Shown here: positions 6,102 to 29,310 of the stretch, piece by piece
Numbering within the stretch: the stretch's first letter is position 1
Layout of the letters: the number at the start of each line of letters is the position of its first letter
From: an uncultured Candidatus Poseidoniales archaeon
Lineage (GTDB): Archaea > Thermoplasmatota > Poseidoniia > Poseidoniales > Thalassarchaeaceae
Assembly: GCA_902625325.1 (NCBI GenBank)
Contig: CACOAW010000012.1
Location: 1-34,772, forward strand
Reading direction: 5' to 3'
DNA length: 34,772 bases
Position numbers and translations under genes: made by a program
Notes under the pieces: model-generated
Databases searched by the model: none
Seen by the model: only the letters and a program-made list of their open reading frames with translations
What the model was told of the DNA's origin: nothing

Positions 6102-6134
6102 TCCGGATGGCTGGCTAGGTGCCAGCCATCCGGA
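6102..6134 (+). terminator. Perfect 14-bp hairpin after proteorhodopsin
   Basis: TCCGGATGGCTGGC (6102-6115) is followed by a 5-nt loop (6116-6120) and its exact reverse complement (6121-6134). The motif ATCCGGA also occurs at 6078-6084, giving three copies in 57 bases. There is no strong T-run just after the stem, unlike a bacterial terminator. Archaeal termination normally uses T-rich tracts, so a role in 3'-end protection or processing of the rhodopsin mRNA is equally possible. Confidence 0.5.
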
Positions 6135-26443: not shown

Positions 26444-26530
26444 AAGTTGATGCGGTTGATTGGTTTTTTTTGAAGTTGGGGGAGTCTAATATCAAAATTT
26501 ATGTTCTCTTTTTTGGAAATGTCAATTTAT

Positions 26531-26560
26531 GTAGTCAATAACAGTATTTATATTGACTAC
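26531..26560 (+). promoter_or_regulatory. Perfect inverted repeat over the TATA box of the copper operon
   Basis: GTAGTCAATA (26531-26540) and TATTGACTAC (26551-26560) are exact reverse complements separated by 10 bp. A third half-like GTCAAT occurs at 26521-26526. The candidate TATA box TTTATATT (26547-26554) overlaps the right arm and lies about 26 nt before the ATG at 26577, so the transcript is probably leaderless. A dimeric regulator bound here would block TBP. No regulator gene is in the window, so it must act in trans. The repeat is a direct observation; copper control is inferred from the genes downstream. Confidence 0.75.
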
Positions 26561-26576
26561 AATATTCGAGAGAACA

Positions 26577-26768
26577 ATGCCTAGAATACCAGCAAAGGCT
26601 TGTGACTGCGGCTGCAAAATGAAGCGCATTTACTCTCGTTCTGATGGTGGAAAGGGCTGGGACCCCGTTGGCTGGATGTGTACCTGCGGATGTGGGTGTG
26701 TTTCTCTGGATACAGGAGATTGGCAATTAACAGAGTGTTGTTCGAAACAGGAGGTTCTCGATGGATGA
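26577..26768 (+). CDS. Nine-cysteine small protein, first gene of the copper operon
   Basis: 63 aa with nine Cys (positions 9, 11, 13, 35, 37, 39, 41, 54, 55) in clusters CxCxC, CxCxCxC and CC, plus Trp28, Trp33 and Trp49. This looks like a metal-thiolate or zinc-ribbon-like protein. One subset of the cysteines (13, 35, 39) has the C-x21-C-x3-C spacing of TRASH metal-sensing domains, but with so many Cys the match may be chance. The stop overlaps the CopA ATG by 8 bp, which indicates translational coupling. The ATG at 26577 is preferred over the TTG at 26553 because it lies at the expected distance from the TATA box. I do not recognise the family; a copper chaperone, buffer or sensor is inferred. 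Confidence 0.75.
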   Translation: MPRIPAKACDCGCKMKRIYSRSDGGKGWDPVGWMCTCGCGCVSLDTGDWQLTECCSKQEVLDG

Positions 26769-29022
26769 TCGGAAATTAACGCTAAGTGTTACGGGAATGA
26801 CATGTGCGGCCTGTGCTTCATCCGTTGAGCGGGTTCTTTCTGGAATTGATTCAATCACTAAGGCTGAAGTGAATCTAACATTAGAAAGAGCGATGATATC
26901 ATTTCCTGAGCGATTTTCAGAATCACAAATTAAAGAATGTGTGGATGCGATAACCGGTGCTGGTTTTGGTGCGATGGAGTTGCTCCCAGCGCTTAAAGTC
27001 AGAAGGATGAGAGAAGAGAATGTCTCACAACAACTTACACGAGTGATTATTTCGCTCTCCCTTTCATGTGCCATTTTTTGGTTGACGATGGTGGGAGGTG
27101 ATATTGGCGAGTGGGGATCTTTGAATATCCGTCTTTTTATTGCCATGATTTTATCGTCAATAGTTTACTTTTACTGCGGATTAGAATTTCATCGAGGTGC
27201 ATGGAAATCAATCGCTAATAGAATCGCGAACATGGATGTATTAGTCCATATCGGCACTTCTGTGGCCATGTTTTGGTCTTGCTCTGTCACTCTCGCCCCC
27301 ATTGTTTCGGAGTTACCGGATTTTCTGAGAGAGACGAATCACGTATTCTTCGATGGTTCATCTTTCATTATCTCGTTTGTCTTGTTAGGCGGATACCTAG
27401 AATCGAGAGCCAAACTGAAGGCAACGGACTCCATTCACGGGTTAATGAAGCTCCAGCCGAGGAATGCCAGATTGGTAAAAGATGATGGAGAAATTCAAGA
27501 GGAAATAGTGGATTTAGTCCCAAGGGGTTCGCTAGTAAAAATACTGGCAGGCGAGACTGTTCCGTTAGACGGGACCATAGAAGACGGAATCGGTTTGATA
27601 GACGAGTCAATGATGACTGGAGAGTCCGCCCCAGTTCCGAAGGGTCCTGGTGACAGCGTTGTTGCGGGAACCATCGTAATGGACAGTACGATAGTGATCA
27701 GAACTACTTCACTCGTCCATGAAACTATGCTTTCTAAGGTAATCCATTTAGTGGAAGAAGCGCAAATGGGCAAGGCACAGATTCAAAGATTAGTTGACCG
27801 AGTGTCGGGAGTTTTCGTACCTGCAGTGATATTTGCGGCAATAATTGCTTCCTCGTTCTGGCTAATCTATGCGGACGATTTTGCTCCTGATTCAGCCATG
27901 TCATCGGCAGAGATATCTGTCATGGTATTGGTCAGTACACTGGTTATAGCTTGCCCATGCGCTTTGGGCCTGGCAACCCCAACCGCCTTGGTCGTGGGGA
28001 CTGGCACGGGAGCTTCACAGGGTTTATTGATCAAGGGAATATCAGCATTGGAGAAATCACATTCAACCTCAATAGTTGTCATGGACAAGACTGGAACCAT
28101 AACGGCCGGAAGACCAGGAGTTAGAGGAATCAATGTTATGCGAGGCAATAGGGAAAAGATTCTATCAATATCCTCCGGTTTAGAAAACGAGTCGACCCAT
28201 CCAATTGCTAGCGCAATAAACTCTGCATCAGCTGAGTATGGGTGTGGGGGGTACAAAATTGACTCCATTAAGACATTCCCAGGAATGGGTCTATCCGGAG
28301 TTCTGGATGGAGCTATTGTTGGAGTGGGAAATCTAGCAATGATGGAGCATTTAGACGTCGGGATACCAGAGGGAATTGAGGAAGAGATTAGGATAAGGGC
28401 AATGCTGGGAAGAACTGTAATTTTTGTCTCTGAAGATAGAAAGATATTGGGATACATCGAGGTAGAGGATGAAATCCGTGAGAATTCCGAGTCGTCTGTA
28501 TCGGCACTACAAAAAAATGGAATTGAAGTCGTGATGTTGACAGGCGACAGAGAAGAGGTCGCGAGCACAATAGCAGCTACTGTTGGAATTGACAGAGTGA
28601 TATCAGAGGTTAAGCCTCATGAAAAGGCGGAAGCAATTCTGGATTTGCAGAAGGGTGGAACAGTTGCCATGATCGGAGACGGCATAAACGATGCAGCTGC
28701 TTTAGCAGTTGCAGACGTAGGAATAGCGATGGGTTCGGGGAGTGAGATTGCTCTAGAGAGTGCGGACATAGTTCTAATTCGTAATGACCTATCAGATGCA
28801 GTGGCAGCATTGGATTTAGGAAAGGCAACGATGAACAAAATAAGGAGCAATTTAGTATGGGCGTTCCTTTACAATCTAATTGGAATCCCTATTGCAATGG
28901 GCTTATTCTATCCGTGGACTGGAGAATTGTTGCCACCTGCATTCGCTGCTGCGGCGATGTCGCTGTCTTCGGTGAGCGTGGTTGGAAATTCCCTTATGCT
29001 CAGGAGATGGAGCCCTAACTAA
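26761..29022 (+). CDS. copA: Cu(I)-exporting P1B-type ATPase
   Basis: 753 aa. The N-terminal heavy-metal-associated domain has 'GMTCAAC' (Cys15, Cys18). Two helices, then 'HIG' and further transmembrane helices, precede the actuator with 'MTGES'. The membrane metal site is 'CPC' (398-400). The phosphorylated Asp442 lies in 'DKTGT', 'ENESTHPIA' holds the P1B HP motif, and 'GDGIND' is at about 639-644. C-terminal 'YNLIG' and 'MSLSSVSV' provide the Asn/Tyr and Met/Ser residues of the Cu(I)-selective P1B-1 group. It pumps cuprous ion out of the cytosol. The gene is richer in A/T than the window average, and it is co-translated with the cysteine-rich protein. Silver transport is also common in this group. 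Confidence 0.96.
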   Translation: MDDRKLTLSVTGMTCAACASSVERVLSGIDSITKAEVNLTLERAMISFPERFSESQIKECVDAITGAGFGAMELLPALKVRRMREENVSQQLTRVIISLSLSCAIFWLTMVGGDIGEWGSLNIRLFIAMILSSIVYFYCGLEFHRGAWKSIANRIANMDVLVHIGTSVAMFWSCSVTLAPIVSELPDFLRETNHVFFDGSSFIISFVLLGGYLESRAKLKATDSIHGLMKLQPRNARLVKDDGEIQEEIVDLVPRGSLVKILAGETVPLDGTIEDGIGLIDESMMTGESAPVPKGPGDSVVAGTIVMDSTIVIRTTSLVHETMLSKVIHLVEEAQMGKAQIQRLVDRVSGVFVPAVIFAAIIASSFWLIYADDFAPDSAMSSAEISVMVLVSTLVIACPCALGLATPTALVVGTGTGASQGLLIKGISALEKSHSTSIVVMDKTGTITAGRPGVRGINVMRGNREKILSISSGLENESTHPIASAINSASAEYGCGGYKIDSIKTFPGMGLSGVLDGAIVGVGNLAMMEHLDVGIPEGIEEEIRIRAMLGRTVIFVSEDRKILGYIEVEDEIRENSESSVSALQKNGIEVVMLTGDREEVASTIAATVGIDRVISEVKPHEKAEAILDLQKGGTVAMIGDGINDAAALAVADVGIAMGSGSEIALESADIVLIRNDLSDAVAALDLGKATMNKIRSNLVWAFLYNLIGIPIAMGLFYPWTGELLPPAFAAAAMSLSSVSVVGNSLMLRRWSPN

Positions 29023-29069: not shown

Positions 29070-29310
29070 AATATGGCACAAATTGTGCACAAGTTGAAGA
29101 TTGAGGGCATGACGTGTGGTGGATGCTCAAAAAGGATCAATACAGTCCTTAGCGGGGTCTCGTGGGTAATTGATGTCGATATATCTCATGAGTCAAGTAA
29201 TGGATATGTGACCACTCCGAGTGACGTTTCGGTTGACCGAGTAATTGAGATGATTAATTCAACGGGTTATCAAGCAATCAAAATCTAGGAGTTGCCTACA
29301 TGCGAAATTG
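29052..29310. repeat. 13-bp direct repeat flanking the copZ-like gene
   Basis: ACATGCGAAATTG occurs exactly at 29052-29064 and again at 29298-29310, where it contains the ATG and first codons of nadE. The upstream copy could encode the same first residues (Met-Arg-Asn) followed quickly by a stop. The pattern is what a target-site duplication or a short-homology insertion of the chaperone gene between promoter and nadE would leave. Chance cannot be excluded. Confidence 0.6.
29073..29288 (+). CDS. copZ: CopZ-like copper chaperone (HMA domain)
   Basis: 71 aa, a free heavy-metal-associated ferredoxin-fold domain with 'IEGMTCGGCSKRI' (Cys15 and Cys18). The end of the fold is 'VIEMINSTGYQAI'. It would bind Cu(I) and hand it to the CopA N-terminal domain. 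It lies 50 bp after copA, behind its own putative promoter, and 11 bp before nadE. The symbol rests on size, motif and context. Confidence 0.88.
   Translation: MAQIVHKLKIEGMTCGGCSKRINTVLSGVSWVIDVDISHESSNGYVTTPSDVSVDRVIEMINSTGYQAIKI

Follow-up and report, generated by a model that had tools for sequence, protein, structure and literature searches.

The window, a stretch of 34,772 nucleotides from a Candidatus Poseidoniales archaeon, carries a cluster of three genes on the + strand. The first gene (26577-26768) encodes a protein of 63 residues with nine cysteines (CxCxC ... CxCxCxC ... CC), a candidate copper-sensing regulator with the sequence MPRIPAKACDCGCKMKRIYSRSDGGKGWDPVGWMCTCGCGCVSLDTGDWQLTECCSKQEVLDG. 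The second, copA (26761-29022), encodes a copper-type P-type ATPase of 753 residues with an N-terminal HMA domain (PF00122, PF00702, PF00403) that scored 543.9 bits against TIGR01511, for which the cut-off is 397. The third (29073-29288) encodes a CopZ-like HMA protein of 71 residues, with a score of 42.1 bits against PF00403 (cut-off 24.8). An earlier note on this DNA had placed a 9-Cys open reading frame at the head of a copper operon, and this arrangement was confirmed. The upstream neighbor, on the opposite strand, is a class I tRNA synthetase resembling ileS and the downstream neighbor is an NAD synthase. No RNA structure or tRNA was found within the window.

The longest open reading frame of the 9-Cys gene has 71 codons and begins with a TTG at 26553. 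This start was rejected since it lies inside the second arm of the operator described below, and the conserved start is the ATG at 26577. The stop of the 9-Cys gene overlaps the start of copA by 8 nt (ATGGATGA), so that translational coupling of the two genes, as the earlier note had it, is plausible in the window. However, the coupling is not a constant feature of the relatives, where the distance is variable: the copA match may start as early as 8 nt ahead of the stop of the 9-Cys gene or as late as about 29 nt beyond it, a range that omits L042 (masked) and L043 (truncated gene).

The 9-Cys gene is preceded by a perfect inverted repeat with arms of 11 nt and a spacer of 10 nt, referred to here as the operator. 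It had been described before with the same spacer and arms of 10 nt, a combination that does not hold because arms of 10 nt would leave a spacer of 12 nt. Arm 1 (26527-26540, + strand) reads TTATGTAGTCAATA and is itself a dyad, TWWTG-TAGT-CAWWA, of which positions 26530-26540 (TGTAGTCAATA) belong to the perfect inverted repeat. Arm 2 (26551-26564, - strand) is an inverted copy of this dyad, the perfect part being 26551-26561. A TATA-like box, TTTATAT, was recognized by eye at 26547-26553 on the + strand. The earlier placement of a TATA sequence inside the palindrome was therefore correct as to its presence, but the box is only partly between the arms, its last bases falling within arm 2. The start codon is about 24 nt beyond this box, so the transcript of the operon is probably leaderless, with the promoter itself a predicted one.

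Perfect inverted repeats with arms of at least 11 nt and spacers of 0-16 nt occur at two places in the window, the operator and 6102-6134, where a mean of 0.07 was expected by chance over 30 first-order Markov resamples of the window. The second repeat (TCCGGATGGCTGG...CCAGCCATCCGGA, arms of 11 nt or more) lies between open reading frames. The base composition of the operator was evaluated at the 62 of 71 loci with an exact core, nine being omitted. The arm consensus is TWWTGTAGTCAWWA, again a dyad in itself, and the outer T and A of the dyad were present in 61/62 and 58/62 loci for arm 1 and in 51/62 and 62/62 for arm 2. In the 62 aligned loci the flank of arm 2 that holds the TATA-like stretch is conserved (1.1-2.0 bits per position), whereas arm 1 has no such conserved flank (0.04-0.64 bits at the equivalent positions). 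The end of arm 2 is 13-16 nt from the ATG in all 62. The core-to-core gap is 15-18 nt in 54 loci and 11-13 nt in 8, two classes that are about half a helical turn apart.

When the single sequence was used as the query, the 9-Cys protein was found in 10 of the 148 genomes of the window's family. A profile search (E<=0.01) retrieved it from 72/318 Poseidoniales genomes, and after two weak matches were dropped (G043 and G082, E 0.008) there remained 70 genomes with 71 places, 10 genomes belonging to the window's family and 60 to the other family, in ten genera. When one genome per species was scanned among 84,980, 70 loci were obtained, which are titled Poseidoniales or Euryarchaeota with the exception of L039 (Rhodobiaceae). 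L039, on contig CALDQY010000196.1, is a Poseidoniales-type copA locus under that title and is probably misbinned or mislabelled. In 68/70 loci copA lies downstream in the same direction, and a copZ-like homologue was counted by us in 51/70, some contigs stopping earlier. The earlier note had proposed a search of other Poseidoniales genomes for the gene and the palindrome, and both do recur before copA. The upstream context of the 70 loci is an RNB ribonuclease gene in 45, a GNAT-like gene in 6, a divergent ileS in 2 and unlabelled in 17, although one of the unlabelled contexts, L081, shows the end of an RNB gene. At two loci, L065 and L075, the 9-Cys gene and the operator lead a set without copA that consists of genes for a membrane protein and a choice_anch_V protein. 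One genome bin, G191, has two copies of the gene with copA on contigs C44 and C45 (L099 and L050), one with both operator arms and the other without arm 1; a contamination of 5% is reported, so the bin may be mixed.

A CopR-type protein was found in 1/309 genomes of the order (G034 only), where copA is accompanied by a divergent gene for a regulator with an Lrp/AsnC helix-turn-helix plus TRASH (L189 679-1287, - strand), and there is no 9-Cys gene. Depending on the genome, this place is thus taken by the conventional CopR or by the 9-Cys gene, as judged from this one case of CopR. A literature search found no published account of the 9-Cys protein or its operator; for the arm sequence, the ten text matches listed out of 52 look unrelated by title.

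The paired operator, TGTAGTCA-N4..24-TGACTACA, was present in 62/318 Poseidoniales genomes at one place each, and in 60 of the 62 it was directly before the 9-Cys gene, within 20 nt. The reversed pattern, used as a control, gave matches in 3 genomes. The exact paired form is missing in ten gene-bearing genomes, several of which have a near-exact form (L072 and L095, for example, are one base off). The extra operator of G277 falls inside an open reading frame of 813 codons and was taken as a chance match. The extra site of G313, a genome that is 57% complete and in which no 9-Cys gene was found, is a perfect operator with 11-nt arms and a TATA-like spacer (L130 3508-3539; G313:C23:18007-18038); by eye, it precedes small open reading frames and a gene for a thioredoxin-like lipoprotein.

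The single arm was also used as a search pattern in 30 genomes that were picked by us out of the 70 gene-bearing ones. The exact dyad was found in 53 copies in 29 of the 30 genomes, all at the promoter of the 9-Cys gene and 0 elsewhere, and in the genome of the window it occurs solely as arm 1 and arm 2. There is consequently no visible regulon, nor does any unlinked regulator gene carry the operator, although the single-arm pattern is strict: the arms of G270 itself escape it, and degenerate sites elsewhere would escape as well. Since the reversed single-arm pattern gave 5 scattered matches in the 30 genomes, stray dyads are perhaps selected against.

Natural losses of the 9-Cys gene bear on the question of which protein reads the operator. 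A copA gene (E<=1e-80) was found in 111/318 genomes, 43 of them without the 9-Cys gene. The sequence upstream of copA was scanned in 37/43 of the gene-less genomes, which with the second locus of G266 gave 38 loci; L203 and L204 were outside the operator scan. The best operator match in these 38 loci was 18 of the 22 bases, compared with 20-22 of 22 in 63/67 loci with an intact gene. Relics of the operator were seen in G226 and G241 (18/22) and in G203 (17/22), and in G208, G221 and G225 the TATA-like box has been kept while the arms are mutated. The relics alone are fully informative, because at many of the gene-less loci one deletion may have taken the gene and the operator together. A tblastn search of the gene-less loci for remnants of the 9-Cys gene gave weak, chance-like matches alone. 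The nearest relative with copA, G147 (94% identical), was unusable as it is cut by the contig end.

Damage to the gene was likewise found beside damage to the operator. L039 and L043 have no arm 2 and arm 2 of L091 is changed at two positions, yet the operator of L092 is perfect beside a truncated gene. Conversely, one arm has been lost beside an intact gene in L044, L050 and L066 (arm 1, one clade) and in L055 (arm 2), and three loci (L087, L088 and L090) lack one knuckle cysteine and have kept the operator. A copA tree of 102 rows was constructed, 100 of which were scored for both traits. L058, L065 and L075 were left out because they have no long copA and G223 and G261 because they have no upstream sequence; the gene-less loci G260, G258, G263, G288, G176 and G266:C235 are also outside the tree. 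With an intact gene, the operator was present in 60 rows and missing in 4. With the gene absent or damaged, it was present in 2 rows and gone or decayed in 34/36, where both the label of damaged gene and the threshold of 19/22 were set after the sequences had been seen. About ten independent pairs could be drawn from the tree, of which on average 7.8 agree, 0 oppose and 2.2 are undecided (p 0.008-0.016). The plain Fisher value of 7e-20 takes no account of kinship and is not to be relied on.

The joint retention or loss of gene and operator suggests that the two may constitute an undescribed copper-sensing switch. Because copA survives in the gene-less lineages, the operator should have persisted there if it were read by an unlinked protein in the service of copA. 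The simplest reader would be the 9-Cys protein itself.

The possibility was considered that the 9-Cys protein belongs to a known family. The cysteines form the clusters C9-x-C11-x-C13 and C35-x-C37-x-C39-x-C41. Residues R3, K16, R17, Y19, R21, W28 and W33 are invariant, K14 and K26 are nearly so, and the non-Cys segment KMKRxYxR..GGKGW..xGW is strictly conserved; the invariant basic and aromatic residues would suit contact with DNA. In the relatives the protein is under purifying selection, with a median dN/dS of 0.15 for 96 pairs having a dS of 0.1-1.0 (six loci omitted), the highest value of 0.41 being that of a pair involving the damaged L039. Eight members (L077, L079, L081, L083-L086 and L089) are longer, 78-86 residues with 12 cysteines, and their acidic tail at the C terminus has CC as its last residues. 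The AF2 model, built with 67 sequences (pLDDT 72.8, pTM 0.50), has strands at 15-21, 28-35 and 42-44, in which a beta hairpin joins the two Cys knuckles as in a zinc ribbon, at moderate confidence. There is no helix-turn-helix in the model, and none was matched by the 67 members at E<=1. When the model was compared with the PDB by Foldseek, 37 matches were obtained, the best with an E of 1.7 and none useful.

The profile searches that had been proposed earlier gave no confident match: no family in Pfam, NCBIfam or the PDB matched the 9-Cys protein at E<=0.001. Metallothionein models of Pfam or NCBIfam did not match either. A content of 9 Cys in 63 residues is compatible with the binding of several Cu(I) or Zn ions in metallothionein-like thiolate clusters. 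The CbrC model NF040891 was touched by 21/67 members (best E 0.0037) and two chains of arenavirus nucleoprotein appeared at E 0.21-0.23; both were taken as chance. A viral origin was also considered, but 68 pattern matches in viral contigs yielded no relative. The TRASH domain has the cysteine spacing C-x19..22-C-x3-C. The earlier note had pointed to a subset of the cysteines with this spacing, and C13-x21-C35-x3-C39 is indeed present; among nine cysteines it is weak evidence. Kinship with TRASH did not survive, since 0/67 members matched PF08394 (Arc_trans_TRASH) at E<=1, whereas the same model as a positive control found the CopR-type protein of G034 with an E of 3.3e-6.

A possible kinship with archaeal CxxC zinc ribbons has better support. 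Across the phylum, profile matches were obtained in 46/389 genomes, 39 of them Poseidoniales; the seven others, all faint (E 6.7e-4 to 0.0096), comprise five CxxC ribbons and two proteins that are unrelated by eye. The CxxC ribbons of other Thermoplasmatota share the frame KRLYxR...VGWxC..C with the 9-Cys protein, and the alignment of the two profiles with hhalign had a probability of 94.8 over 35 columns, a score that is biased upward because the partners were preselected by the 9-Cys profile itself. The CxxC knuckles of a zinc ribbon are not present in the 9-Cys protein, which has CxCxC and CxCxCxC instead. We infer that it may be a zinc ribbon in which the CxxC knuckles became CxC clusters.

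The reading that we favor with modest confidence is that the 9-Cys protein would be a dedicated, autoregulating one-component copper regulator that acts as a repressor of its own operon. At low copper, the protein would bind both arms, one on either side of the TATA box, probably as dimers, one to each TWWTG-TAGT-CAWWA dyad and two per promoter. The bound protein would keep TBP and TFB off the promoter and the expression of the 9-Cys gene, copA and copZ would stay low. The CxCxC and CxCxCxC clusters would capture excess Cu(I), and with a changed fold the loaded protein would leave the DNA and the pump and the chaperone would be made. We infer DNA binding by the protein, Cu(I) as the signal, repression rather than activation, and the dimers. 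Repression is preferred on two grounds: the TATA box is flanked by the arms, and the gene-less lineages have retained copA, several of them together with the TATA-like box. The position of arm 2 at 13-16 nt from the start codon also fits occlusion of the promoter.

Several other observations were counted in favor of this repressor. The operator lies at the gene's own promoter and is lost with the gene, as autoregulation implies. The basic residues K14, K16, R17, R21 and K26 are conserved beside the Cys clusters. The block of gene and operator is found in several neighborhoods, also before the non-copA set of L065 and L075, and the sole TRASH-type CopR locus beside copA, that of G034, is without the 9-Cys gene. 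Against the regulator count the lack of a recognized DNA-binding fold, the intact genes with one arm lost, L092, the losses of a knuckle cysteine with the operator kept and the operator-like site of G313 with no gene found. Furthermore, the same pattern would result if an unlinked regulator had disappeared on the same occasions.

More tentatively, the protein may represent a new metalloregulator family, a proposal that we regard as possible, if not quite probable. Its members would be zinc ribbons with Cu(I)-thiolate CxC clusters, copper sensors and DNA binders of 60 residues without a helix-turn-helix that repress their own operon from a pair of dyads flanking the TATA box, each genome having one target and stray sites being selected against.

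Poseidoniales (Marine Group II) are abundant, uncultured archaea of the surface ocean, and copper is both needed and toxic. If the proposal is true, copper export in a sizeable minority of them would be under the control of an unknown regulator family, the sensor and the DNA-binding part would be united in one mini-protein, and the case would show how an ordinary zinc ribbon can turn into a copper sensor. Transcripts of halocyanin and plastocyanin are prominent in one genus of Poseidoniales, according to a published study (PMC9723583).

The proposed regulator was compared with known copper systems. As with CopR, CopT and VNG1179C, the putative regulator gene lies beside copA, the operator is at the copA promoter next to the BRE and TATA elements, and sensing by cysteines is proposed. 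However, those proteins combine an Lrp/AsnC helix-turn-helix with TRASH; the 9-Cys protein matches neither and is one third the size. The operators differ as well, TWWTGTAGTCAWWA occurring twice at the 9-Cys locus, whereas Pyrococcus furiosus CopR is reported to activate copA from TTNNCAWWWTGNNAA, just upstream of the BRE (PMC7830388). Moreover, the 9-Cys gene is first in its operon while the CopR-type gene is divergent.

In Firmicutes the repressor CopY, which is switched by Zn and Cu(I), combines a winged-helix domain (PF03965) with a cop box, TACANNTGTA. The logic proposed here resembles that of CopY, with CxC sites, a repressor that leaves the DNA on Cu(I) and a place as the first gene of the cop operon, but neither the winged helix nor the cop box is seen at the 9-Cys locus. 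CsoR is a small copper repressor without a helix-turn-helix that derepresses copA; it has an all-helical fold and a Cys-His-Cys site. The 9-Cys protein is likewise small, has no helix-turn-helix and would derepress copA by Cu(I), but it is modelled as a beta hairpin ribbon and has nine cysteines. The nearest known way of working for a Cys protein without a helix-turn-helix is that of the copper fist of yeast Ace1 and Mac1 (PF00649), a small Cys-rich DNA-binding module with a CxC Cu(I) cluster and basic residues. The 9-Cys protein is archaeal, however, and its cysteines are in a different order. None of the 67 members matched PF02583 (CsoR), PF03965 (CopY) or PF00649 (copper fist) at E<=1. Archaeal C-x2-C zinc-ribbon proteins (segments L210-L214) share the frame C..C - xKRLYxR - GW.C..C, but they keep the CxxC knuckles and have no known link to copper, whereas the 9-Cys protein has CxCxC and CxCxCxC.

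In the strongest rival to the repressor, the 9-Cys protein would do no more than share the promoter and would serve as a Cu(I) buffer or metallothionein-like chaperone supplying CopA and CopZ, while an unlinked conventional regulator reads the operator. The nine cysteines in CxC motifs within 63 residues, the 12 cysteines of some members (L077-L089), the co-transcription of the gene with those of the pump and the HMA chaperone, and the fact that no DNA-binding fold was recognized are all what a buffer would have. An unlinked regulator, however, should have retained its operator after loss of the gene, and in 34/36 rows of the tree it did not; no second operator was present at any other gene in the 30 genomes scanned, a CopR-type regulator was found in one of 309, and the strict KMKRxYxR..GGKGW..xGW segment exceeds the needs of a plain metallothionein. 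The buffer is considered unlikely, though worth keeping in view. The earlier suggestion of a novel copper-binding protein of archaea ahead of copA, either sensor or buffer, thus survives, with the evidence favoring the sensor. Two of the outcomes named in advance as refuting it, a confident match to a described family and the absence of gene or palindrome from related copA loci, did not arise.

Yeast has CxC-rich Cu-cluster regulators that bind DNA when loaded with copper. On this precedent of the copper-fist factors, a copper-activated activator might on Cu(I) loading bind the arms and recruit TBP and TFB. The position of arm 1 is comparable to that of the P. furiosus CopR site just upstream of the BRE (PMC7830388). 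Arm 2, however, follows the TATA box, and an activator bound there would stand in the way of initiation; moreover, no Pfam match to the copper fist was found. Furthermore, the gene-less lineages keep an intact copA and several TATA-like boxes (G226, G203, G208, G221 and G225), as expected for a lost repressor but not for a needed activator. Activation is considered improbable. A regulator with another signal, or with copper as one of several (Ag, Hg, Cd, persulfide; a soft metal or thiol stress), is very improbable: CxC clusters do bind many soft metals and the gene sets of L065 and L075 have no recognized copper role, but a copA homologue is led in 68/70 loci and the ATPase of the window is above the copper-subfamily cut-off of TIGR01511.

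Two minor observations were also made. At the non-copA loci, L065 (5998-6180) and L075 (5046-5234) with L131 and L132, the choice_anch_V protein carries a CTCHG motif. The genome of the window also has a second P-type ATPase, located at G000:C11:23588-24073 (L002), which matches PF00122.
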